From Ferrovibrio sp. (GTDB taxonomy: Bacteria > Pseudomonadota > Alphaproteobacteria > Ferrovibrionales > Ferrovibrionaceae): a DNA stretch of 64,000 nt. Position 1 is the first letter of the stretch; each line of letters opens with the position of its first letter. Made by a program: the position numbers and the translations under genes. The notes under the pieces were generated by a model. The model saw nothing but the letters and a program-made list of their open reading frames with translations, searched no databases and had not been told where the DNA came from. Below, in pieces: positions 19,699-51,422 of this stretch. Location: the NCBI RefSeq assembly GCF_029255545.1, contig NZ_JANLJJ010000009.1:21287-85286 (forward strand). The letters are read 5' to 3'.

Positions 19699-21228
19699 AT
19701 GAACGTGAGTGCACCGACGGGCATCACTGAAGCTTCCGGCGGCGTTGTGCTGTGTCAGGACGCCCATTCGCTGTCGGAGCGCCGCGCCCGGGCCATGATC
19801 GGCCGTGTCTGCCGCGACTATTTCGACGAAAACATCCTGACCCCGATCGAGCTGCTGCATCACAGCGGCCATGGCAAGCTGCTGAATGGCGCGGAGAACC
19901 TCTGCGCCGCCCTGGTGCAGAAAGCCGCCGTTGCCCAGGCCCAGGCGACCAATTCACCCGTGCGCGACAAGGTCAAGAAGCTCTATGCCATCACCACCGC
20001 GGCGATCACGCAGGTGGAGGCCTTCGAGAAACGCCTGCCCGCCACGCCGCTGACCCACCGCCTGCTGGCGCAGCTGATCACCTCCGACCCGCTTTACGGG
20101 ACGCGGATCGCCTATTGCGCGCTGGCGCATCACCTTGAATTTTCCAAGAACTGGACCGAGAAGGCCGATCGCTGCCTCGCCCTGTTTGATACCGGCATCG
20201 ATCCATCCGCGGCGACCATACTCGACGAGGCCCTGGCGGAAATCCTGCAGGCCAAGTCGGCGGTGCCTGAATTGCTGGGCAAGTTCCGCGACGCGCGCCT
20301 GCGCATCATCCAGTTGATGGCAATTCTCGATAAGCGCTATGCGATCGACGAGGCTGCCTACGACACCGAATTCTCCCAGCGCCTGTATGCCGTGGGGGCC
20401 AAACACAACATGCCGGCCCTGCGCGAAGCCGTTATCCAGTTGCTGCGCCGGCTGCTGATATCTTCCGTGCCGCTGCTGTCGGAGGAACCGGCCGAGGAAT
20501 TCCCCGCCACCCGCGAGGTCTATGCGCTGCTGACCAGGGATCGTGAATTCGCCCTGGAACTGGGCGCGGCGGATCTGTTCGAAAAACGCATGGTGCGGCT
20601 GGTGACGGCTGAAAAGCTGACCAAGCTCGTGCCGGGTTACTATTCGGCGCCAAAGCTGATGACGGCGCTGAAGCTGTTCGAGGAAGCAATCGGCGACGGG
20701 CCGAAGGAAATCCTGCTCAAGTATATCGCCTATCTTTATGAGCACCGCGACCTGGAGAAGGAATTCGTCGATCCCGCCTATACGACGGAAGAGAAGGTCG
20801 AGATCGCCAACGAACTGCGCAAGCTGACCGTCAGCACCGGACTGTCGGATCACCGGCGCGAGCAGTTTCTCGGCATTCTCGACCCGCTGATCCAGCGCCT
20901 CGCCAAGGGCGACCAGCGCCGGTCCACCCGCAACCAGTGCGGCCCGGAGGACCATGTGGTGCTGGAAGGCGCCCGCATCCCGCTGAAGAACTGGAGCGCC
21001 ATCGGCCTGCTGTTCGGCCCGATCAGCGGCACTTTCCTGGAAGGCGAGCTGCTGAAACTGACGGTGAAGATCAAGAATCCGAAGCTTCAGGTCACTTTCG
21101 ATGCGGAAGGCGATGTCGTGCGCTATACCGACGAAGGCTTTGTCGCCATGAAATACCGCTGCCTGGATGCCCAGGCAGCCAAAAAGGTCGCGCTCTATTT
21201 CGATCCACTGGCCGGCGCCAAGAGCTAG
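19699..21228 (+). CDS. PilZ-domain protein with long helical N-terminal region
   Basis: A 509-residue cytoplasmic protein. The last 110 residues read as a PilZ domain that binds cyclic di-GMP. The arginine motif is R407-R408-S-T-R411 (RxxxR), followed by the NWSAIG motif (N431-x-S433-x-x-G436, the [D/N]xSxxG signature), so the ligand-binding residues look intact. The first 400 residues are helical without membrane segments and contain no domain I recognise, with charged segments (DKVKKLYAITTAAITQVEAFEKRL). It is probably a c-di-GMP effector; the output is unknown. It is transcribed alone, convergent with the DUF3606 gene 4 bp away. Confidence 0.75.
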   Translation: MNVSAPTGITEASGGVVLCQDAHSLSERRARAMIGRVCRDYFDENILTPIELLHHSGHGKLLNGAENLCAALVQKAAVAQAQATNSPVRDKVKKLYAITTAAITQVEAFEKRLPATPLTHRLLAQLITSDPLYGTRIAYCALAHHLEFSKNWTEKADRCLALFDTGIDPSAATILDEALAEILQAKSAVPELLGKFRDARLRIIQLMAILDKRYAIDEAAYDTEFSQRLYAVGAKHNMPALREAVIQLLRRLLISSVPLLSEEPAEEFPATREVYALLTRDREFALELGAADLFEKRMVRLVTAEKLTKLVPGYYSAPKLMTALKLFEEAIGDGPKEILLKYIAYLYEHRDLEKEFVDPAYTTEEKVEIANELRKLTVSTGLSDHRREQFLGILDPLIQRLAKGDQRRSTRNQCGPEDHVVLEGARIPLKNWSAIGLLFGPISGTFLEGELLKLTVKIKNPKLQVTFDAEGDVVRYTDEGFVAMKYRCLDAQAAKKVALYFDPLAGAKS

Positions 21229-21823: not shown

Positions 21824-24800
21824 ATGCGTCACATATTTGCCGTTCTGGGTGCGCTGGCAGTGATTGGCGGAACCGGCTGGATGCAGTCCGGCCAGGCCCA
21901 GCCCGCCGCGCAGCCGGCGTCGCAGCTTGCCGCGCCGCCGCGCAGCATCGCCGATATCGTCGCCATCCTTGATCAGCAGAAGCCGGACCCTGTTCGGCGC
22001 GCCAAGCTGATCGCCGATGCCGAGGCGGCCGAACCGCCGGGCCTGGATACCCGGCAGCGCAGCCGCTTCCTGTATGGCCGCGCCCAGGCCGCCAACCTGA
22101 TCGGCCGCAGCGAGGCCGCGCTGGCCGATCTCGAGCCGGCCATCACGCTGGCCATCTCGGTCGGCGACGATGTCTACCGCATGCAACAGCTCTATGCCGG
22201 CCTGCTGCGCATGACCGGCAAGCCGCAGGAATCGCTGACCTACTATGTTAAGCTGGCCGAAAACGAGAGCAAGGGGCGATTGAAGGGCCGCCTGTTCAAC
22301 ATCTATCGCAACATTGTCCAGGGCGCGGCGGCGGCCGGCAGGTTCGAGATGGCCAAGCGCTATCTCGACCAGGCCGAATTCCAATACAGCGAGATCAGCA
22401 ACAATTCGCGCGGTCCGAACAATTTCATGTTCCTCTCCTCGTGGCAGACCGATATCGATCTGAGCAAGTCGATCGTCGCCAGCTTCCGCGGCCAATATGC
22501 CGAAGCCGAAGCTGCCATGGCCGTAGCGCTCCTGAACAACAAGGAGACCCAGCAGCGCTCCAAGCACTGGCCCGACCCGCCGGCTGCCGGCGTGATCGAA
22601 AGCGGCGGCGATCTCATCTTGTCGAGCCTCGGCGAGGCCAAGCTGGCCCAGGGCCGCATGACCGAGGCTGAAGTCGATATCCGCCAGGCCCTGCTCAACA
22701 GCTTGCGGCGGGAAGGCAAATACAGTTTTCGCACGGCCACCTTTGCCAGCAGCCTGTCGAATGTATTGCTGGAACAGGGCCGCCTGATGGAAGCGGAGAA
22801 AATGGCGCGCACCGCCGCCGAAATCTTCCATGAAATCGGTTATGACGAGAATGCGCCCGCGGCGCTGGCCACCATACGGGCCGTGGCCAACACGCTGGTG
22901 CTGCAACGGCGCTGGCAGGAAGCCGCCGAACTCTATGCAAAGATGATCGCGGCAACGGCGGACTGGAGCGAAGGCCGCGCGCGCGTCATCCGCCGCAGCC
23001 CGGCGCGCATCCTCACCATGGCGCGGACCGGACATGGCAATGATGCCGCCGACGTTGCCACGCAGATGGTGCAGGTCAAAGCCGAGCGGATGGGCGAGAA
23101 GCATTTCGAAGTGGCGATGGATCGCGGATTGCTCGGCATTGCGCTGTCCGCCGCCGGCCGGGATGCCGAGGCAATGGCCGCGTTCCGCGAGGCCGTGCCG
23201 ATCCTGCTGTCGGCCTCGCGCCAGGCGGAAACCGAGGAGGCAGGCCTGGCGACACGCGATTTCTACGTGCAGACCATCATCGAGGATTACATCGTGCTGC
23301 TGTCCCGCGTGCAGGGAAGCGCGGCCGGTGCCAGCGTTGATGCCGGCAGCGAAAGCTTCCGGCTGGCCGATGCCGCCCGCGGCCGCAGCGTGCAGCGCGC
23401 CCTGGCCGCTTCGGCGGCCCGCGCCGCAGTGCGTGACCCGAAACTGGCCGAGCTGGTGCGCGCCGAGCAGGACCAGCAGAAGCAGATCGCCGCCCAGTTC
23501 GGACTGCTGTCCAACCTGCTGGCCCTGCCGCCGGAACAGCGCGATGACAAGGCAATCCAGGCCATGCGCGTGGATGTCGACAAGCTGCGCGATGCGCGCG
23601 CCAGAACGCGGCAGCAGATCGAAAAACAGTTCCCCGAATACGCCAGCCTGATCGATCCGCGCCCGCCCGGCGTGGACGACATCCGGAGCGTGCTGCGTGC
23701 CGACGAGGCGCTGGTCTCCTTCTACCTCGCGCAGGAAAACAGCTTTGTCTGGGTCGTGCCCAAGCAGGGTCCGGTCGCCTTTGCCGCCGCGCCCCTGGGG
23801 GCAAAAGCCATCGAGGGCAAGGTGCAGAAACTGCGGCTGGCGCTGGAACCGCAGGCGGAAACCCTGGGCGACATCCCGGCTTTCGACCTGGCGCTGGCAC
23901 ATGAACTGTACAGGACTTTCCTGCAGCCGGTGGAAGCCGGCTGGAAGCCGGCAAAAAGCCTGTTCGTCGTCACCAATGGCGCGCTGGGCCTGCTGCCGCT
24001 GTCGCTGCTGCCGACCGCGCCGGCGCAGGTTGATGCCCAGAAGGCCGAACCGCTGTTCGGCGGCTACAAATCCGTGCCCTGGCTGGCCCGCAGCCATGCG
24101 GTGACGCAGTTGCCGTCGACGGCGGCGCTGAAGACCCTGCGCGGACTGCCGGTCGGTGGCGTCGGGCGTGAACCGCTGGTCGGCTTCGGCGATCCCTTCT
24201 TCAATGCCGAACAGGCTGCGGAAGCCGCCAGCGAGGCGCCGCTGCAGGTTGCGTCGACCGATCCGGTCGCGGTGCGCGGCGCCAAGCTGAAGCGCCGCAA
24301 CGCACCGCAGACCACCGGCGTCGACAGCGCCGAACTCGGCCTGCTGCCCCGCCTGCCCGATACCGCCGAGGAACTGCGCTCGGTGGCGATGGCCATGCAG
24401 AGCGATCCGGCAAAGGCCCTGTTCCTCGGCAAGCAGGCAAACGAGAAAGTCATCAAGCAGACCAGGCTGGATAACTACCGCGTGGTGGCCTTCGCCACCC
24501 ATGGACTGGTACCCGGCGATCTGAACGGCCTGACCCAGCCGGCCCTGGCCCTGACCGCGCCGCAGATTGCCGATGTGGACGGCGACGGCCTGCTGACCAT
24601 GGATGAGATCCTCGGCCTCAAGCTGGATGCCGACTGGGTCGTGCTGTCGGCCTGCAACACCGGCACCGGCGCGGGTGCGGGCGCGGAAGCGGCCTCGGGC
24701 CTGGGCCGCGCCTTTTTCTATGCCGGCACGCGGGCCCTGCTGCTGACCAACTGGTCAGTGCATTCGGCCTCGGCGCGCGATCTGGTGACCGACCTGTTCC

Positions 24801-24964
24801 GCCGCCAGTCGGCCGATATGAAACTCGGCCGCGCCGAGGCGCTGCGCCAGGCGATGGTGGGCCTGCTGGACGGGCCAGGTTATCAGGAAAACGGCCGGAC
24901 GCTGTTCAGCTATGCCCACCCGATCTTCTGGGCGCCCTACAGCCTGATGGGCGACGGCGGCTAG
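21824..24964 (+). CDS. Exported TPR-CHAT domain protein (caspase-like)
   Basis: A 1046-residue protein with a signal peptide (basic start, hydrophobic VLGALAVIGGTGW, cleavage near GQAQ), so probably periplasmic or secreted. Residues about 40-600 are TPR-like helical repeats rich in A..LA..Y patterns. The C-terminal 330 residues are a CHAT domain, a caspase/separase-fold peptidase, with His893 in FATHG and Cys944 in LSACNTGTG. Between them, residues 917-928 (DVDGDGLLTMDE) fit an EF-hand calcium loop. The ribosome-binding site is weak. It is convergent, 4 bp apart, with a CHASE2 cyclase. Proteolytic activity is inferred from the dyad. Confidence 0.85.
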   Translation: MRHIFAVLGALAVIGGTGWMQSGQAQPAAQPASQLAAPPRSIADIVAILDQQKPDPVRRAKLIADAEAAEPPGLDTRQRSRFLYGRAQAANLIGRSEAALADLEPAITLAISVGDDVYRMQQLYAGLLRMTGKPQESLTYYVKLAENESKGRLKGRLFNIYRNIVQGAAAAGRFEMAKRYLDQAEFQYSEISNNSRGPNNFMFLSSWQTDIDLSKSIVASFRGQYAEAEAAMAVALLNNKETQQRSKHWPDPPAAGVIESGGDLILSSLGEAKLAQGRMTEAEVDIRQALLNSLRREGKYSFRTATFASSLSNVLLEQGRLMEAEKMARTAAEIFHEIGYDENAPAALATIRAVANTLVLQRRWQEAAELYAKMIAATADWSEGRARVIRRSPARILTMARTGHGNDAADVATQMVQVKAERMGEKHFEVAMDRGLLGIALSAAGRDAEAMAAFREAVPILLSASRQAETEEAGLATRDFYVQTIIEDYIVLLSRVQGSAAGASVDAGSESFRLADAARGRSVQRALAASAARAAVRDPKLAELVRAEQDQQKQIAAQFGLLSNLLALPPEQRDDKAIQAMRVDVDKLRDARARTRQQIEKQFPEYASLIDPRPPGVDDIRSVLRADEALVSFYLAQENSFVWVVPKQGPVAFAAAPLGAKAIEGKVQKLRLALEPQAETLGDIPAFDLALAHELYRTFLQPVEAGWKPAKSLFVVTNGALGLLPLSLLPTAPAQVDAQKAEPLFGGYKSVPWLARSHAVTQLPSTAALKTLRGLPVGGVGREPLVGFGDPFFNAEQAAEAASEAPLQVASTDPVAVRGAKLKRRNAPQTTGVDSAELGLLPRLPDTAEELRSVAMAMQSDPAKALFLGKQANEKVIKQTRLDNYRVVAFATHGLVPGDLNGLTQPALALTAPQIADVDGDGLLTMDEILGLKLDADWVVLSACNTGTGAGAGAEAASGLGRAFFYAGTRALLLTNWSVHSASARDLVTDLFRRQSADMKLGRAEALRQAMVGLLDGPGYQENGRTLFSYAHPIFWAPYSLMGDGG

Positions 24965-24968
24965 ACCG

Positions 24969-27068
24969 TCATTTCTCGGTCAGGGCGCGCGGCGTGACGC
25001 CAGCGCCGGGATCGCCGTCCAGCCGCTGGCGCCAGAGCTGCGCCGCCTTGTCGTCAGGCAGCGCTTTCAGGATGGCCGTGGCGGCGACCGCATCACCGGA
25101 TGCCACGGCGCCATAGGCGGCGACATAGGCCGTGAGGATTTCGTTCTGCCGCGCATCGGCGCGGCCCTGACGGGCCAGCGGCTCGAAAATCCGCACCGCC
25201 GCCGAGCGACCCACCACCTGCACGCTGTCAATCGGTCGCGCCAGCACGGCATCGCCAGCGGCAAGCATGGTCATCTCGCTGGCCAGAATGGTGGTGCCAT
25301 ACTGCTTGTTGGCGCTTTCCAGCCGGGCCGCCAGATTCACCGCGTCGCCCATCGCCGTGTAATTGAAACGCCGCGGCGAGCCGATATTGCCGATCAGCGC
25401 CCGGCCGCTATTCAGTCCGATCCGGGTATGCAGCGGGCGCCCTTTCACGGCGAAACGTTCGGGCTCGCGCTGCAGGGCATCGCGCATATGCATGGCCGCG
25501 CGCACGGCATGAACGGCGTGTTTACGGTCATCCAGCGGCGCGCCGAACACCGCCACGATGGCATCGCCGATATACTTGTCGACGAAGCCGCCATGCTCCT
25601 CGATGATCGCCGTCATGGTCGAGAAATAACCGTTCAGCGCCTGCACCAGCTCGGCGGGCGAGCAACTTTCGGAGATGCTGGTAAAACCGGCAATATCGCT
25701 GAACAGGATGGTGACCTCGCGCTCCTCGCCGCCCAGGCTCGGCAGGCGACCGCTGGCCACCATGCGCTCCACCATGGCGGCCGGCAGATAGAGCGAGAAC
25801 AACCGGGCAATCAGCCGCTTGTCGCGATCGGCCACCATGAAGCGATAGGCAATCGAGGCGCCAAGCAGCAGCAGCAATGCGACGGCGACATTCAGCCAGG
25901 GCATGGCGATGCCCTGGCGCAGCAGCACGGCCGCCGTGAACGGCAGCAGCAGGCCGCCGCCCAGCGCCGTGGCCAGGCCCGGCAGCAGCGGCAGATAGAA
26001 TACCGCCAGCCCGCCGGCCAGTGCCGCCATGGCCGCGGCGATGAACACGGCGGATGACGACCATTCCCGCAGCTCGCCGCCATCCAGCAGGTTGTTGATC
26101 GCGGCGGCATGGATATAGACACCCGGGATGCTGTCGCGCGCATACGGAGCCGCCGACGGGCGCGGCAGGATGCAGGAAGGCGGCGGATTGGCGCCATCGG
26201 GCGCCGTGATCAGGCGCTTGGAAGTCAGGCGGCGATCCTCGACATCCAGCACGGTGCCGACCAGCACGACCCGGCCGGCGAAATGCTGCCTGAAATACTC
26301 AGTATTGCCGGCCGCCGCACAGGCCTGCAGGTCGGCTAGCGAGTAGCTGGGAATATCACCCGGGCCGGTATTGAACCCGACCAGGATATTGCCTTCGCCA
26401 TCGGCATCGATGCGGCGAGTGCCCAGCGTATACTGCCCGGCATCATCCCGCGTCAGCGGCTGGCCCAGACGGCGCTGCGCCAGTTCGGCGGCGATGCCGG
26501 TCTCGCGCCCGCCATCGGCGGTAGGGAAATCGAGCGGCACGCGGCGGATGATGCCGTCTGGGTCCTCGAAGACATTCAGCGCGCGGATATTGCGGCCGCC
26601 GCCAACGGCGATCTGCTGCGCCTGGTGCGGCAGGATCGGCAACTGCGAATGCTGCACCTTGCCCAGCACCAGCCTGTTGGCGCGGGCGGCATTGCGCAGC
26701 GCGATCAGGAAGTCGCGTTCGAAGCCGCGCTGGAAGGAATCGAGCGAGGTGGAATAGACCACGTCGAAACCGACCGCGGCGGCCTCGGCGGCAATCGCGT
26801 TCAGCACCGGCGCCAGCAAAGGCGGCCAGGCCGCCTGCGGCGTTTCACTGAAGGGCGGCGTGCGGTAGGTCGCCTCGTCAATGGCGACGACCACGGCATG
26901 GCTTTGCGTCGGTTCCGCCTGCGGCCCGAACAGCAGATGGCGCAGCGGATAGGCCAGATCAAGCGACGGGCCACGCAGCCAGATGCCGGCCGGGCTCGCC
27001 AGCAGGGCGGCAGCGCCCAGCGCGGCCGCGGCGATGACGGCGAGATCGCGCAGGCGAGGCCGGTTCAT
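24969..27068 (-). CDS. CHASE2-domain class III adenylate cyclase
   Basis: A 699-residue membrane receptor. There is one helix near residues 8-28, an extracytoplasmic CHASE2 sensor (about 35-330), three transmembrane helices (about 337-410), a linker, and a class III cyclase domain (about 450-620). Catalytic residues look complete: metal-binding D458 (FSDIAGF) and D502, purine-specifying K498 (VDKYIGDA) and T571 (NYTAMGDAVN), and transition-state N578 and R582. The Lys/Thr pair points to ATP and hence cAMP. It lies 6 bp downstream of the FecR-like gene on the same strand and faces the CHAT gene. Confidence 0.9.
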   Translation of the reverse strand: MNRPRLRDLAVIAAAALGAAALLASPAGIWLRGPSLDLAYPLRHLLFGPQAEPTQSHAVVVAIDEATYRTPPFSETPQAAWPPLLAPVLNAIAAEAAAVGFDVVYSTSLDSFQRGFERDFLIALRNAARANRLVLGKVQHSQLPILPHQAQQIAVGGGRNIRALNVFEDPDGIIRRVPLDFPTADGGRETGIAAELAQRRLGQPLTRDDAGQYTLGTRRIDADGEGNILVGFNTGPGDIPSYSLADLQACAAAGNTEYFRQHFAGRVVLVGTVLDVEDRRLTSKRLITAPDGANPPPSCILPRPSAAPYARDSIPGVYIHAAAINNLLDGGELREWSSSAVFIAAAMAALAGGLAVFYLPLLPGLATALGGGLLLPFTAAVLLRQGIAMPWLNVAVALLLLLGASIAYRFMVADRDKRLIARLFSLYLPAAMVERMVASGRLPSLGGEEREVTILFSDIAGFTSISESCSPAELVQALNGYFSTMTAIIEEHGGFVDKYIGDAIVAVFGAPLDDRKHAVHAVRAAMHMRDALQREPERFAVKGRPLHTRIGLNSGRALIGNIGSPRRFNYTAMGDAVNLAARLESANKQYGTTILASEMTMLAAGDAVLARPIDSVQVVGRSAAVRIFEPLARQGRADARQNEILTAYVAAYGAVASGDAVAATAILKALPDDKAAQLWRQRLDGDPGAGVTPRALTEK

Positions 27069-27074
27069 GGAAAT

Positions 27075-27737
27075 CTAGAAGCGGACCAGACGCAGCAACA
27101 GCGGCCCGCCGCCATCGGCGGCGCCGGGATCGATGCGGAAGATCGTGCTTTTGCCGTTCAGCGCGACGCGATAGATGCCGCCGGCAAAAAGCGGCTTGCC
27201 CGTCTTGGCCAGATCAAACAGCTTGCCGCTGGCCTTGTAGAGCAGCACCGTTTCGGGCTGGTCGAGCCGCTCGATGGTGAGATCGCCTGGCCTATCCACG
27301 GCAAAGGCCGGCGCGGTATAGAGCAGCGTCACGCTGGGCTCGGGCGTGTTGGCCGGCGTCTTGCCGGTGCCGGGACCACGGCGGAACACCATCGCGCCGC
27401 TTTTGCCGGCCTGGGCCTGGCCAAGCTGCAGATTGCCGCCGCATTTGAGCTGTTCCTGCTGGACCTTGCCGCCACTGACCGCGGAGCCCTGCTGGCCGAC
27501 CGTGACCTTGCCGCCGGTGATGGTCTCGCGCAGGCAGGATTGCATGTAGCCCAGCGTGATGCGCGTGCCGGCCGGCAGCGTGATCACCTGGCCGGGTTCG
27601 AGGAAATCGAACACCTCGATGCCGGCGACCGGAGCGGACAGGTCCTCGACCACGGCGGCCGCTTTTGACTGCGCCAGCGCATTGCCCGCCATCATCAGGC
27701 AGCCGATGGCCACCAGCATTCCGATCCGACGTATCAT
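27075..27737 (-). CDS. Secreted FecR-like protein
   Basis: A 220-residue protein with a signal peptide (RRIGMLVAIGCLMMAGNALAQ). The mature part resembles a FecR-type beta domain: VEDLSAPVAG, LEPGQVITLPAGTRITLGYMQSC, and GGKVTVGQQGS, with two Cys (SCLRE and LKCGG) that could form a disulphide. The C-terminal half is beta-rich. It is not the anti-sigma FecR of iron uptake, as no sigma gene or transmembrane segment is nearby. An AGGGG site precedes the ATG at 27737. It is the first gene of an operon with the CHASE2 cyclase and could feed that sensor. Confidence 0.65.
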   Translation of the reverse strand: MIRRIGMLVAIGCLMMAGNALAQSKAAAVVEDLSAPVAGIEVFDFLEPGQVITLPAGTRITLGYMQSCLRETITGGKVTVGQQGSAVSGGKVQQEQLKCGGNLQLGQAQAGKSGAMVFRRGPGTGKTPANTPEPSVTLLYTAPAFAVDRPGDLTIERLDQPETVLLYKASGKLFDLAKTGKPLFAGGIYRVALNGKSTIFRIDPGAADGGGPLLLRLVRF

Positions 27738-27810: not shown

Positions 27811-27844
27811 CAAAAGAAAAACCCCGGCGGATCGCTCCGCCGGG
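27811..27844 (-). terminator. Intrinsic terminator of the cmk-rpsA operon
   Basis: Read on the minus strand, CCCCGGCGGA and TCCGCCGGGG form a perfect 10-bp stem with a GCGA loop, followed by TTTTTCTTTT. It lies about 30 bp past the rpsA stop and is the strongest terminator in the window. Confidence 0.93.
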
Positions 27845-27874
27845 GTTCCATCTTCGGTGGACGGGCAGCGCGGC

Positions 27875-45350: not shown

Positions 45351-47920
45351 CAGGAGCCAAATCCGAAAGAGCGCGCCACCTGCACATGGCTGAAATAGCT
45401 GCGCGAGAGCTGATCGGAGATATCCATCAACGCATCGCAGGCGGCATCCAGGCTGCCGCGCAGGCGGGTGCTGAGCTGCGCCATCTCGTCGCGCGGGATG
45501 TCGTCGCGGTCGAAACGCGCCACCAGATCGGCAAACGGCTTGGTCAGCGCCAGGCAATCGGCGCCGCGCGGCGGCGCATCGGGATTGGGCAGGGCATCAA
45601 GATGCTGCGCCATGGTCTGCAGCTGGAAGGCCAGCGCATGCGGATTGCTGCCATCGAGCAGCAGCAGGTCGAACACGGCCGCCGCCTGCAGGGCGGCGCG
45701 ATAGCGCCGGCGATAGGTGAGCGTGGAATCGCTGACCTCGAGCGCGACGCGGAAGGCGGATTCGCTGCTCTGGCCCAGCACGGTGGTGGCGGCCGAGACG
45801 CTGCGGGTGATGAAGACGCCGCGTTCCAGGCGGCGGCCGAAATCGAGGAAACGCCAGCCCGAGCCGCGCGTCATGTGTTCGGCCAGCATGCCGGCAATCG
45901 CGGCGGTGGCACGGATCATCTGGTCGCAGAATTCCAGCATGGCATCGACATCGCCGGCGGCCGCCGGCTGGCTGATGCGCAGCTCGCCCAGCAGATGATT
46001 GAGCATGCGCCACATATCGGCCGAGAAACGGTGCCGCGACACGGCGGCCAGCCGCTCGATGCCGTCGATGGTCTGGCCCAGCAGCTGGCTGGGCGCGCAG
46101 GCGCGCGTGATGGCGCCGACGAACAAGGCCGAATCCGGCGGCGCGGCAGCCGCCTTCTGGTCGAGCAGGCCGCAGCGCGCCATCGCGCGCGCCAGCACCG
46201 CCATCTCGACCAGGTCGCGGGCGGAGGAGAATTCACCGACCAGACGTGAGAGCACGGCGCGCAGCAGCCGGGCGCCGCCATCCAGCCGCTCGACGCTGCG
46301 GCCAAGCCAGTAGAGGTCGTCGGCAACGCGGCTCTGCAGCGTGCCCGAGGAGCGCCGCAGCGCCAGCCGCTGGCGCGTCGCCGCGCCGCGGATCACCGTG
46401 GGGCCCTGGTCCTTGGCCACCACCCAGACATCCTTGTTGACGCCGCCGCGCTGCAACGTGGCGGCGAAGGGATCGTTGCTGCTGGGCACGCGGGCCAGGC
46501 CACCGGGCATCACCACGTAATCCTCGCCATCGGCCACCACCTGCACGCGGAGCAGGATCGGCTGCGGCTCCAGCCCCTTGTCGCCCAGGCCGGGCGAGAC
46601 GGATGGAACGATACGCTCCTGCGCCACATAATCGCCGGGCCGCGCCCTGACCTGGGCCAGGAAGCTGGCGCGTTCGGCATCCGACAGGCTGCCGACCACG
46701 ACCGGCCGGTCATTCAGGCCATAAGCGCCGCGCACCACCAGTTCGTCGAACCGCGTCTGCACCTCGGTCATCGCGTAGGACTGGCCGCACCACCAGGTGG
46801 CGATCGACGGCAGGGCCAGCGTCTCGCCCAGCAGATGCTCGCTCAGTTTCGGCAGGAAGGCCTGCAGGGCCGGCGCGCCAGCCAGGCCGCTGCCGATGGC
46901 GTTGCTGACGCCGACCTGGTTGTCGCGCAAGGCCTGCAGCAGGCCGACGACGCCGAGCGTTGAATCGGCGCGCAGTTCCAGCGGGTCGCACCATTCGCCA
47001 TCGAGCCGGCGCAGGATCACGTCGACCGGTTCCAGTCCGGCCAGGGTTTTGATGAAGATGCGGCCATCGCGCATGGTGAGGTCGGCGCCTTCCACCAGCG
47101 TGGCGCCGAGTTCGCGCGCCAGATAGATATGCTCGAAATAAGCCTCGTTATACGGCCCCGGGGTGAGCAGCACGACACGCGGATTGTCGGATTGCTGCGG
47201 CGCGCGGGCGGCCAGATCGGCCTGCCAGTATTCGAAATAGGCATTCAGCGGCCGCACGCGGCATTGCCGCAACGCCTGGCCGAGCAGGCGCGACATGACC
47301 CGGCGGTTCTGCAAAGCATAGCCGGCGCCGGCCGGCGCCTGGGTGCGGTCGGCGATCACGCGCCAGATGCCGTCGGGGCCACGCACCAGCTCGGCGGCGT
47401 AATGCTGCAGCATGCGGCCCTGCGGTTTCCCATCGGTGCGGCGCGCCGCGCGCAGGAAATCGCGATGGCCATAAACCAGCGCCGGCGGCAGGCGATGCCG
47501 CAGCAGCAGATCCATCGGACCATAGAGATCGCGCAGCATCGCATCGAGCAGGCGGGCGCGCTGGATCAGGCCGGTCTCGATGCCGGCCCATTCCTCGGCC
47601 GAAAGCAGCACCGGCACCGGATCGAGCCGCCAGGGCCGCTGTTCCGGCAAAGGCGGCGCGATGGCCGCGCCGCTTGGCCCCGGACTGCCCGGCAGCTCGT
47701 AGAGATTGTAGGTGACGCCTTCGTCTTCCAGATACTGGCGGCCGCGTTCGGCGCGTTCGGACAGGCCGGCCGCGCCAAGCTCGCTCAAGGTGGCCAGCAA
47801 GGGCTGCCAGTGCGGCCGGATCACGCCCTGGCCGGTGACCATCTCGTCATAGGCCTCACCCGGCGCGGGCCTGGCCGGCGTCGTGGTGGGGGAAAACTTG
47901 GCCTGCAGGGGCGAATTCAT
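45350..47920 (-). CDS. Fused circularly permuted ATP-grasp and alpha-E protein
   Basis: An 856-residue two-domain protein. The N-terminal part (about 20-480) matches circularly permuted ATP-grasp amidoligases: ADRTQAPAGAGYALQNR, VVLLTPGPYNEAYFEHIYLARELG, LRRLDGEWCDPLELRADS and YVAQERIVPSVSPG. The C-terminal part (about 540-840) is an alpha-E domain (LYWLGRSVERLDGGARLL, then LGELRIS), with helical repeats. These often occur as separate genes; here they are fused. The longest frame runs to 48253 but its N terminus overlaps the DUF2126 gene, so I start at the ATG at 47920, with 47923 an alternative. It is coupled to the next gene. Confidence 0.9.
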   Translation of the reverse strand: MNSPLQAKFSPTTTPARPAPGEAYDEMVTGQGVIRPHWQPLLATLSELGAAGLSERAERGRQYLEDEGVTYNLYELPGSPGPSGAAIAPPLPEQRPWRLDPVPVLLSAEEWAGIETGLIQRARLLDAMLRDLYGPMDLLLRHRLPPALVYGHRDFLRAARRTDGKPQGRMLQHYAAELVRGPDGIWRVIADRTQAPAGAGYALQNRRVMSRLLGQALRQCRVRPLNAYFEYWQADLAARAPQQSDNPRVVLLTPGPYNEAYFEHIYLARELGATLVEGADLTMRDGRIFIKTLAGLEPVDVILRRLDGEWCDPLELRADSTLGVVGLLQALRDNQVGVSNAIGSGLAGAPALQAFLPKLSEHLLGETLALPSIATWWCGQSYAMTEVQTRFDELVVRGAYGLNDRPVVVGSLSDAERASFLAQVRARPGDYVAQERIVPSVSPGLGDKGLEPQPILLRVQVVADGEDYVVMPGGLARVPSSNDPFAATLQRGGVNKDVWVVAKDQGPTVIRGAATRQRLALRRSSGTLQSRVADDLYWLGRSVERLDGGARLLRAVLSRLVGEFSSARDLVEMAVLARAMARCGLLDQKAAAAPPDSALFVGAITRACAPSQLLGQTIDGIERLAAVSRHRFSADMWRMLNHLLGELRISQPAAAGDVDAMLEFCDQMIRATAAIAGMLAEHMTRGSGWRFLDFGRRLERGVFITRSVSAATTVLGQSSESAFRVALEVSDSTLTYRRRYRAALQAAAVFDLLLLDGSNPHALAFQLQTMAQHLDALPNPDAPPRGADCLALTKPFADLVARFDRDDIPRDEMAQLSTRLRGSLDAACDALMDISDQLSRSYFSHVQVARSFGFGS

Positions 47921-47945
47921 CATCCCGTCCGAATCGGGCGGGAGT

Positions 47946-50900
47946 TTACCCGGTTCGCAGATCAAGGGTAAGCGGCTGTTCGCGCGACAAAGCCGCGACC
48001 GGCGGCGGCAATGGCCCCGGCGTGTGGCCCATGGCGAAGAACCGGGCCCGGCGCCTGGCCTCGGCCTCGTTGCCGTTGACCGGGAAGGTGTCGTAGCTGC
48101 GCCCGCCGGGATGGGCGACGTGATAGCTGCAGCCAGCCAGGGCGCGACCGTTCCAGCCATCGAACAGGTCGATACCGAGCGGCGTATGCACGCCGATGGA
48201 GGGATGCATCGCGCTGGGCGGCGCCCAGGCCTTGTAGCGCAGGCCGGCGACATATTCGCCCGGCACGCCGGTGCCGCGCAGGGGCAGCGCGCGGCCGTTC
48301 ACCGCCAGCACATGGCGGCCATCGACCAGGCCCTTCACCTTCACCTGCAAGCGTTCGACGGAAGAATCGACGTAGCGCGCCGTGCCGCTGCCGGTCGCCT
48401 CCTCGCCCAGCACATGCCAGGGCTCGAGCGCATGGCGCAGCTCCACCTCGATGCCGCGCGCGGCGATTTCGCCGATCTTGGGAAAACGGAATTCGGCATG
48501 GGCGGCGAACCAGTCGGGGTCGAAGCCGAAGCCGCGATCCTTCAGGTCGTCCAGCACATCGTGGAAATCCTGCAGGCAGAAATGCGGCAGCAGGAATTCG
48601 TCATGCAGCCGCGTGCCCCAGCGGATCGGCTTACGCGTATAGGGCCGTTCCCAGAAGGCGGCCAGCAGGCCGCGCAGCAGCAGTTGCTGCGCCAGGCTCA
48701 TCCGCGCATCGGGCGGCATCTCGAAGGCGCGCAGCTCGACCAGGCCAAGGCGGCCGGTTGGCCCGTCGGGCGAATAGAGCTTGTCGATGCAGAATTCGGT
48801 GCGATGCGTGTTGCCGGTGATGTCGACCAGCACGTTGCGGAAGATGCGATCCACCAGCCACAGCGGCGGATCTGGATTCTTTGCCACCTGTTCGAAGGCG
48901 ATCTCCAGATTGACCAGCGCATCATCGCGGCCCTCGTCGACGCGCGGATGCTGCGAGGTCGGACCTATAAAGAGGCCGGAGAACAGATAGGACAGCGAGG
49001 GATGGTTCTGCCAGTAGCCGACCAGGCTGCGCAGCAGGTCGGGCCGGCGAAGGAACGGACTGTCGGGCGGCGTGGCCGCGCCCATCACCACATGGTTGCC
49101 GCCGCCGGTGCCGACATGACGGCCGTCGAGCATGAATTTCTCGGTGCCGAGCCGGGTCTGCCGCGCCTCCTCATACAGCGCGGTGGTGCGTTCAGCCAGC
49201 TCGCGCCAGTCGGCGGAAGGATGGATGTTCACCTCGATCACGCCGGGATCGGGCGTGACACTGAAATGCAGCAGGCGCGCATCGCGCGGCGGCAGGTAGC
49301 CTTCGATCACCACCTTGCGGCCCAGCATCGCCGCCGTGTCCTCGATGGCGGTGACCAGATCGAGATAATCCTCGGCCTGTTCCAGCGGCGGCATGAAGAC
49401 ATGCAGCAGGCCGCCGCGCGGCTCGATGCACATGGCGGTGCGCACCACGCCTGAATCGGATTGCTGGCTGGCCGGCAAGGGCGTCTGCTCGCGAGGAGCG
49501 GTCGCGTAATTCTGCCCGCGCGCCCAGGCCTGCATGCGCTCAGCGACGACGCGGTGCGCCTGGCGGAACTGCCCTTGCGGCGGCAGCGGCGGCTGATCCT
49601 GCATGGTATCGGGCACATGCTGGTAGGGATAATCCTGCGCCACCACCCAGGGCAGGGAATCCAGCGGCAGGCGCAGGCCCATCGGGGAATCGCCGGGCAG
49701 CAGATACATGGTCTGCGGCCGGAAAAACCACGGGCCGGAGCGCCAGCGTTTCGATCCGTTCAGCCCCTCGCGCTGCAGCGGCAGGGCGTAGCCGGCCACC
49801 TTGTCGAGACCCTGTTCAAAGATGCGCGCCAGCCGCGCGCGCTCTTCCGGGTCGGTCAGGTGCGACTGGAAGGGATCGACATTCACCGGCAGGCGGCGTT
49901 CGCGCCACAGGTAATACCACAGGTCCTCGTAACCCGGGATACGATAGCCGGGATCGAGTTGCAGGCGTTCGGCCAGCGTGGCAGCAAACAGATCGGCATC
50001 CTGCGGCGTCGCGCCATCACCGGCATCTTCATCGGCGGCGAGCAACGCGCGGTCGCGCCAGACCGGCTCGCCATCGCGGCGCCAGTGGCAGCTCAAGGCC
50101 CAGCGCGGCAATTGCTCGCCGGGATACCATTTGCCCTGGCCGTAATGCAGCAAGGGCGAGATCGCGAAACGATCCGCCAGGCGGCGCAGCAGGCGGCCGG
50201 CCAGCAGGCGCTTGTTGGGACCGAGCGCCGCGGTGTTCCATTCGTCGCCGTCCATGTCGTCGATGGACACGAAGGTCGGCTCGCCGCCCATGGTCAGCCG
50301 CACATCGCCGCCTTGCAGCCTCGCATCCACCGCATCGCCAAGATCGAGCATCTTCCGCCAGCTCTCGTCCGAGATCGGCTTGGTGACACGCGGCGTTTCG
50401 CGGAAGCGCGTCACCTTCATCTCATGGGAGAATTCCACCTCGGCTTTTTCCAGCCCGCCGCTGATCGGCGCGGCCGATTGCGGCTCGGGCGTGGCAGCCA
50501 GCGGGATATGCCCCTCGCCCGCCATCAGGCCAGAAGTGGGATCAAAGCCGATCCAGCCGGCGCCGGGCAGATAGACCTCGACCCAGGCATGCAGGTCGGT
50601 GAAATCGGCGACCGGCCCTTCCGGGCCATCAAGCGGCTTGATGTCGGCCACAAGCTGGATCAGGTAGCCCGAGACGAACCGCGCCGCGAAACCCAGATGG
50701 CGCAATGCCTGCACCAGCAGCCATGAGGTGTCGCGGCAGGACCCGCTTTTGAGCCTGAGCGTCTCTTCCGCGCCCTGCACGCCGGGCTCCATGCGGATCA
50801 GGTATTTGATCTCCTGGCTGAGCCGCTGGTTGAGCCCAACCAGGAAATCGATCGTGCGGGCGCGTTCGCGCGGCACGGCGGCAAGCCACTGGCTGAGCAA

Positions 50901-51275
50901 CCGACCGGGCGGATCGACGCGCTGGAACGGCGCCAGCTCCTGCTCCAGTCCCGGGTCGTAGTCGAAGGGAAAATGCTCGGCATCGGGCTCAAGGAAAAAG
51001 TCGAAGGGATTGATCACCGCCATGTCGGCGACCAGATCGACCACCACCTCGAACCTGTCGGTTCGTTCCGGGAAGACCAGGCGGGCGAGGTAATTGCCCT
51101 GCGGGTCCTGCTGCCAGTTGTTGAAATGATCCTGCGGCTGGATTTTCAGCGCATAGCTGATGATCGGCGTGCGGCAATGCGGGGCCGGCCGCAATCGCAC
51201 CGTCTGCGGCCCCAGCGCGATCAGCCTGTCGTAACGGTAGGTGGTACGGTGATGCAGCGCGACCTGGATGCTCAT
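47946..51275 (-). CDS. Large transglutaminase-DUF2126 protein
   Basis: A 1109-residue cytoplasmic protein. The N-terminal 280 residues are a transglutaminase-like domain with Cys180 (KSGSCRDTSW), His229 (FTDLHAWVEVY) and Asp245 (GWIGFDPTSGL), the complete triad. The remaining 800 residues match DUF2126: LTMGGEPTFVSIDDMDGDEWNTAALG, YGQGKWYPGEQLPRWALSCHWR, and HPSADWRELAERTTALYEEARQTRL. It is the first gene of the operon leading into the ATP-grasp gene 25 bp downstream. Family predictions place it in peptide or glutamate-ligase biology, without experimental proof. Confidence 0.92.
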   Translation of the reverse strand: MSIQVALHHRTTYRYDRLIALGPQTVRLRPAPHCRTPIISYALKIQPQDHFNNWQQDPQGNYLARLVFPERTDRFEVVVDLVADMAVINPFDFFLEPDAEHFPFDYDPGLEQELAPFQRVDPPGRLLSQWLAAVPRERARTIDFLVGLNQRLSQEIKYLIRMEPGVQGAEETLRLKSGSCRDTSWLLVQALRHLGFAARFVSGYLIQLVADIKPLDGPEGPVADFTDLHAWVEVYLPGAGWIGFDPTSGLMAGEGHIPLAATPEPQSAAPISGGLEKAEVEFSHEMKVTRFRETPRVTKPISDESWRKMLDLGDAVDARLQGGDVRLTMGGEPTFVSIDDMDGDEWNTAALGPNKRLLAGRLLRRLADRFAISPLLHYGQGKWYPGEQLPRWALSCHWRRDGEPVWRDRALLAADEDAGDGATPQDADLFAATLAERLQLDPGYRIPGYEDLWYYLWRERRLPVNVDPFQSHLTDPEERARLARIFEQGLDKVAGYALPLQREGLNGSKRWRSGPWFFRPQTMYLLPGDSPMGLRLPLDSLPWVVAQDYPYQHVPDTMQDQPPLPPQGQFRQAHRVVAERMQAWARGQNYATAPREQTPLPASQQSDSGVVRTAMCIEPRGGLLHVFMPPLEQAEDYLDLVTAIEDTAAMLGRKVVIEGYLPPRDARLLHFSVTPDPGVIEVNIHPSADWRELAERTTALYEEARQTRLGTEKFMLDGRHVGTGGGNHVVMGAATPPDSPFLRRPDLLRSLVGYWQNHPSLSYLFSGLFIGPTSQHPRVDEGRDDALVNLEIAFEQVAKNPDPPLWLVDRIFRNVLVDITGNTHRTEFCIDKLYSPDGPTGRLGLVELRAFEMPPDARMSLAQQLLLRGLLAAFWERPYTRKPIRWGTRLHDEFLLPHFCLQDFHDVLDDLKDRGFGFDPDWFAAHAEFRFPKIGEIAARGIEVELRHALEPWHVLGEEATGSGTARYVDSSVERLQVKVKGLVDGRHVLAVNGRALPLRGTGVPGEYVAGLRYKAWAPPSAMHPSIGVHTPLGIDLFDGWNGRALAGCSYHVAHPGGRSYDTFPVNGNEAEARRRARFFAMGHTPGPLPPPVAALSREQPLTLDLRTG

Positions 51276-51422
51276 GCCACTCTCTCGGACAAGGACGATC
51301 TGATGCGATGCAATCGGTATGCCGGGCTGCTGTCCAGCCTAAAACGGCCATGCGGCAGGGAAGTTGCCCAAGGCCGGGCCGGAGCGGCGGATTTTTAGGC
51401 AGAGTTGGCCAGAAGCCGCCAG

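Follow-up and report, generated by a model that had tools for sequence, protein, structure and literature searches.

Does a caspase-like protease encoded beside a receptor cyclase take part in the signalling of that cyclase? This question is raised by three adjoining genes in a 64,000-nucleotide stretch of the genome of Ferrovibrio sp. (contig NZ_JANLJJ010000009.1, positions 21,287 to 85,286; the whole stretch is called the window here), which encode a tetratricopeptide repeat (TPR) protein with a CHAT peptidase domain, a class III nucleotide cyclase with a CHASE2 sensor domain, and a small secreted protein whose family has no name (Table 1). We consider it close to an even call that the three genes form one module that signals from envelope to cytoplasm, in which the exported CHAT protein would act upstream of cyclic AMP (cAMP). 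The 4.1-Mb genome has a single CHAT gene, a single CHASE2 gene and a single member of the small-protein family, and since all three share 6 kb, their clustering is above chance. Moreover, the trio is found together in many distantly related bacteria, and remains intact where the flanking rpsA, cmk and 509-aa protein genes are gone.

The open reading frames (ORFs) agree with the original prediction, which had placed three genes within 6 kb and the CHAT and cyclase genes in convergent orientation with a gap of 4 bp; its description of an intact CHAT dyad, of a cyclase with all catalytic residues and of three proteins facing the periplasm is likewise borne out, the last as a prediction. The CHAT protein matches the whole Pfam CHAT model (PF12770, E = 3.6e-49, model positions 2–289 of 289) and also TPR_12, and its His-Cys dyad is invariant across 13 aligned CHATs. 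By domain and dyad it belongs to the CHAT peptidase family as a putative protease. It is predicted to be exported, and divergent CHAT homologues begin with signal peptides or lipoboxes. The TPR and CHAT architecture is shared with Csx29 of Craspase, a CRISPR-associated protease, and with HetF, a cyanobacterial membrane protein; we know of no cyclase linked to either, and the signal peptide speaks against membership of Craspase (type III-E CRISPR). To our knowledge, most CHAT proteases have no known substrate. The cyclase matches Pfam CHASE2 (E = 5e-25) and Guanylate_cyc (E = 4e-27), and hydropathy gives four hydrophobic segments (residues ~9–27, 341–359, 365–383 and 394–412), that is, the transmembrane (TM) order TM-CHASE2-3TM-cyclase by which CHASE2 receptor adenylate cyclases are recognised. 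All metal, purine and transition-state residues of an ATP cyclase are there and the domain matches solved adenylate cyclases, so that adenylate cyclase activity is predicted for the 699-aa protein. We are not aware of any known activation mechanism for CHASE2. Judging from these segments and from signal peptides called by eye and hydropathy, the CHAT protein, the small protein and the CHASE2 domain are all predicted to face the periplasm.

The small-protein gene comes first and is followed by the cyclase gene on the same strand after 6 bp; the pair is probably an operon of its own starting at 27737, because a strong terminator-like hairpin separates it from rpsA. Members of the small-protein family have about 220 residues and two beta domains with a poorly modelled linker in between, and the window protein carries a signal peptide (by eye). 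Its AlphaFold2 (AF2) model has a mean predicted local distance difference test score (pLDDT) of 84 and a predicted template modelling score (pTM) of 0.47. C68 and C99 are invariant in the family alignment and could form a disulphide. The C-terminal half resembles immunoglobulin/fibronectin type III (Ig/Fn3) sandwiches (Z ~6), the N-terminal half gave no convincing match in fold comparison, and the protein has no significant Foldseek match and no match in Pfam or NCBIfam. The earlier label 'FecR-like' has to be withdrawn: the Pfam FecR family (PF04773) is matched at E ≤ 1 by 0 of 20 family members, profile comparison by hhalign gave a weak similarity to FecR proteins beside CHASE2 (13% probability, E = 0.002) and 0.5% probability against the FecR region of the Sinorhizobium meliloti protein NsrA, and membership by sequence was thus rejected; no other Pfam family was matched convincingly by these 20 members either. 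The linker, with pLDDT below 50, contains a conserved G-K-S-x-x-x-V-F-R stretch (column entropy 1.38 vs 2.2 in the flanking linker on both sides). Its arginine was considered as a CHAT cleavage site and rejected, as it is not specific to CHAT loci and is retained with TpsB or M48 partners.

Table 1. Positions of the trio, its domains and conserved residues, and the adjacent hairpin in the window
Feature	Position	Strand	Length or residues	Basis and remarks
TPR-CHAT gene	21824..24964	+	1046 aa	ORF; Pfam CHAT, TPR_12; predicted signal peptide ~residues 1-26
CHAT domain	23891..24955	+	residues 690-1044	Pfam range
CHAT dyad	24500-24502, 24653-24655	+	H893, C944	codons; alignment of homologues
CHASE2 class III nucleotide cyclase gene	24969..27068	-	699 aa	ORF; Pfam; hydropathy; catalytic residues
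Cyclase domain	25209..25721	-	residues 450-620	D458, K498, D502, T571, N578, R582 present
CHASE2 domain	26013..26978	-	residues 31-352	predicted periplasmic; C250, C299 invariant
Small secreted two-domain beta protein gene, unnamed family	27075..27737	-	220 aa	ORF; AF2; family alignments
G-K-S-x-x-x-V-F-R stretch	27381..27407	-	residues 111-119	linker between beta domains; R119 invariant
Terminator-like hairpin	27818..27849	-	14 pairs + T tail	between rpsA and small-protein gene

The neighbourhoods of this family were examined in relatives, named genome contigs, plasmids and 241 sampled alphaproteobacterial genomes, of which 31 contain it. After removal of duplicates, and with the window left out of the count, 64 distinct homologues were obtained; a CHASE2-cyclase gene accompanies 52 of them, in every case directly downstream on the same strand. 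What varies at these 52 loci is the third partner: CHAT is encoded upstream in the same operon (10) or convergently (7, or 8 with the window), the outer-membrane exporter TpsB (17) or an M48 peptidase (7) follows the cyclase, a C14 caspase occurs with an autotransporter-type barrel (3) or with TpsB (1), and in 7 no further partner was recognised. The 12 loci lacking CHASE2 comprise 2 pairs with C14, 3 with M48, 1 with CHAT and 6 bare copies. In a scan of 61 genomes, with expected counts from a simple uniform placement of genes, 16 of 36 CHAT genes have a CHASE2 gene at a distance of 4 kb or less (0.30 expected), and outside the genus 8 of 27 have one nearby (0.26 expected); likewise, the small protein is near CHASE2 in 16 of 22 cases vs 0.15 expected. 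The co-occurrence in alphaproteobacteria by which the original prediction was to be judged is therefore strong. In the same scan, 28 of 86 CHASE2 genes are near a Pfam-FecR gene (0.95 expected), and none adjoins both a FecR gene and a small-protein gene, so that FecR and the small protein seem to substitute for each other beside CHASE2 cyclases.

Active-site motifs and signal sequences were found in most of the C14 and M48 partners checked, the signals being of the twin-arginine translocation (Tat) type in M48: the caspases have His-Cys motifs, and the M48 proteins, encoded directly after the cyclase, have HExxH. Exceptions are the M48 protein of locus L052, whose frame as read lacks HExxH, and the WD40-C14 protein of L121, in which the Cys motif is there and the His motif was not found by pattern search. 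Since unrelated exported proteases replace CHAT, a role of proteolysis itself is favoured. On a tree of 58 small proteins, in which many branches are long or open, at least nine changes of partner type are needed; the TpsB partners form one clade and the M48 partners a separate deep clade. The small protein, the CHASE2 domain and the CHAT domain have correlated pairwise distances (Spearman 0.64–0.77), as expected from co-inheritance, though shared species history could suffice alone. In addition, there are five more CHAT-CHASE2 neighbourhoods without the small-protein family, at least three of which have another small secreted protein, unassigned to a family, beside the cyclase. A fusion of CHAT to the small protein supposed in G134 (a 1345-aa frame) was discarded, as the two sit in different frames. 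The link to proteases, the small-protein family and the swapping of partners all look new, and no report of CHAT with CHASE2 cyclases was found in the open-access literature.

Some further loci deserve mention. An M48 metallopeptidase lies directly after the CHASE2-cyclase in L047, L050, L128, L129, L132, L133 and L135, with a Tat-type signal where read. In L068 (8441-10564) and L124 (7541-9196) a C14 caspase is encoded directly upstream of the small-protein gene, without an adjoining CHASE2-cyclase. L045, L120 and L126 represent a small-protein clade without cyclase, and a heavy-metal P-type ATPase gene adjoins the small-protein gene in L045 and L120, as does one for an ABC solute-binding protein in L120. 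An operon on a Pseudosulfitobacter plasmid (L054, 2119-10365) encodes a C14 caspase, a trypsin-like protease, a TPR protein, a hypothetical protein and CHAT.

Signalling by FecR, TPR and CHASE2-cyclase proteins is already a known kind, represented by the cAMP systems NsrA-CyaK and CyaD1-SMc02177-Clr of Sinorhizobium (PMC7529298, PMC5498481, PMC13001267). NsrA is an outer-membrane receptor required for CyaK-dependent cAMP signalling, and the system, the best-studied relative of the trio, responds to an external protein signal (PMC7529298). The gene for the CHASE2-cyclase CyaK on S. meliloti pSymB comes after one for a protein of 1201 residues that has both FecR and TPR domains and is taken to be NsrA from its size, its neighbour and the published description, the record being unannotated. 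The CHASE2 domain of CyaK is weakly similar to that of the window. Both systems set a CHASE2 receptor cyclase beside an exported TPR protein and would pass envelope sensing into cAMP, and NsrA-CyaK may serve by analogy as a precedent, in which FecR, TPR and barrel are parts of one protein; however, NsrA is an outer-membrane barrel without CHAT, whereas the trio has no such barrel and a small protein that by its sequence belongs to another family than FecR. No CHAT was found on pSymB at E ≤ 1, and SMb20495 was dismissed as a CHAT protein for this reason. CyaD1, the FecR protein SMc02177 and Clr have adjacent locus numbers in S. meliloti (PMC5498481); loci L147, L150, L151 and L152 resemble this arrangement, with a Pfam-FecR protein, a CHASE2-cyclase and a Crp-type regulator, L152 being judged by sequence only. 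Campylobacterota clusters likewise combine a CHASE2-cyclase with a FecR-domain outer-membrane protein and a TPR protein, but they include a phosphodiesterase (PMC9239204), which was not found in the window trio, and a protease is not reported there. As for proteases joined to CHASE2, a metacaspase-CHASE2 fusion is described in Trichodesmium (PMC3501461), which ties a caspase-fold protease to CHASE2 but is a single protein with C14 instead of CHAT, a predicted cytoplasmic protease and no cyclase. Nostoc sp. ATCC 53789 has a CHAT-CHASE2 fusion (L165, 4831-7182) between a two-partner secretion (TPS) exoprotein and a small DUF928 protein; it differs from the trio in having no cyclase, in its probably cytoplasmic CHAT, and in DUF928, another family than the small protein of the window.

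Considering these data, we envisage a core receptor made up of the small secreted protein and the CHASE2 domain in the periplasm, with the exported TPR-CHAT protease working in the same compartment. CHAT might be activated by, or act on, an envelope or external protein via its TPR region, and then cut or engage a partner in the periplasm, which could be the small protein, a ligand precursor or the CHASE2 domain itself; the cytoplasmic cyclase would thereby be switched and cAMP changed. The scheme starts from what the loci show, namely their genes, the intact catalytic residues, the predicted topology, the conserved linkage and the replacement of partners; from this we infer physical interaction, proteolysis, the direction of signalling and cAMP as the product. 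An upstream role is favoured because the predicted export puts CHAT in the compartment of the CHASE2 sensor; since cAMP would arise in the cytoplasm and CHAT is predicted to lie outside the cytoplasm, CHAT is unlikely to be a direct cAMP effector. The Nostoc fusion suggests direct contact of CHAT and CHASE2. More generally, and tentatively, the trio may represent envelope receptors of a kind whose CHASE2 cyclase takes its input, via an undescribed two-domain secreted protein, from an exported protease that can be exchanged for another (CHAT, C14 caspase or M48), coupling periplasmic proteolysis to cytoplasmic cAMP. Several points weigh against this scheme. Many pairs of small protein and cyclase occur without CHAT, with TpsB instead in Azospirillum or with no recognised partner, and the core can thus dispense with it; the conserved R119 motif is retained where CHAT is missing; the structure model of CHAT is poor and unusable in the catalytic domain; and the CHAT of the Nostoc fusion probably faces the cytoplasm and serves as an output, which is opposite to the layout in the window. 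Of the envelope signalling module first proposed, the conserved co-occurrence and the predicted periplasmic facing stand and the FecR membership does not; envelope stress as its stimulus is a guess. Sigma factors and two-component systems are known to receive input from proteolysis in the periplasm, and a protease coupled to a receptor cyclase would, if true, be a new route to cAMP. Furthermore, a module of three genes, among them one for a conserved small partner, offers a concrete, testable set for CHAT substrates and CHASE2 activation, and it links to the rhizobial NsrA-CyaK pathway, which controls plant infection.

Conversely, CHAT could be the output: CHASE2 and the small protein would sense, and cAMP, via a cNMP (cyclic nucleotide monophosphate)-binding regulator, would control production of the exported CHAT, whose task would be to remodel proteins of the envelope or outside the cell. 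In the window the CHAT gene is a transcription unit by itself, ten cNMP-binding matches occur in the genome, and non-cytoplasmic proteins encoded near CyaD1 in S. meliloti are Clr-cAMP targets dispensable for signal perception (PMC5498481); but at 10 homologous loci the shared operon begins with CHAT, and direct contact as suggested by the Nostoc fusion does not fit, so we regard this as possible but on the unlikely side. Rather improbable is export surveillance, in which the small protein and the CHASE2-cyclase would report on the passage of a secreted protein to the surface, and the protease or a TpsB/outer-membrane barrel would handle that protein. It would account for TpsB after the cyclase in Azospirillum, for G024, a CHAT-CHASE2 neighbourhood without the small-protein family in which genes for the CHASE2-cyclase, CHAT, DUF928 and ShlB are neighbours, for the TPS exoprotein beside CHAT-CHASE2 in Nostoc and for the autotransporter-type barrel in L121; against it, the genome of the window has no ShlB match, which is weak evidence as the search controls were also unmatched. 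A defence or programmed-death module, pairing a Pycsar-like cyclase with a caspase-like executioner, is very unlikely. The cyclase domain matches PADLOC PycC models up to E = 1.5e-31, and proteins of the caspase fold are frequent in conflict systems (PMC7159879, PMC8195603); however, class III cyclase domains are similar in general, neither CHAT nor the small protein has a PADLOC match, and the receptor topology, the exported protease and the retention in most Ferrovibrio genomes tested are unlike a cytoplasmic defence island. Pycsar membership was accordingly rejected, the generic cyclase domain alone matching PycC and no PADLOC effector model fitting CHAT or the small protein. That the neighbourhood is coincidental is hardly credible, for although convergent genes need not be related, the co-occurrence is far above expectation and the trio is conserved through rearrangement.

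Besides the trio, two other regions of the window may be mentioned. The gene adjoining CHAT (19699-21225) encodes the 509-aa protein, which has no Pfam match and ~82–84% identity in close Ferrovibrio relatives; judged by eye, the C-terminus may be PilZ-like. At 45353-51338, a gene for a circularly permuted ATP-grasp/Alpha-E protein adjoins one for a transglutaminase/DUF2126 amidoligase protein.

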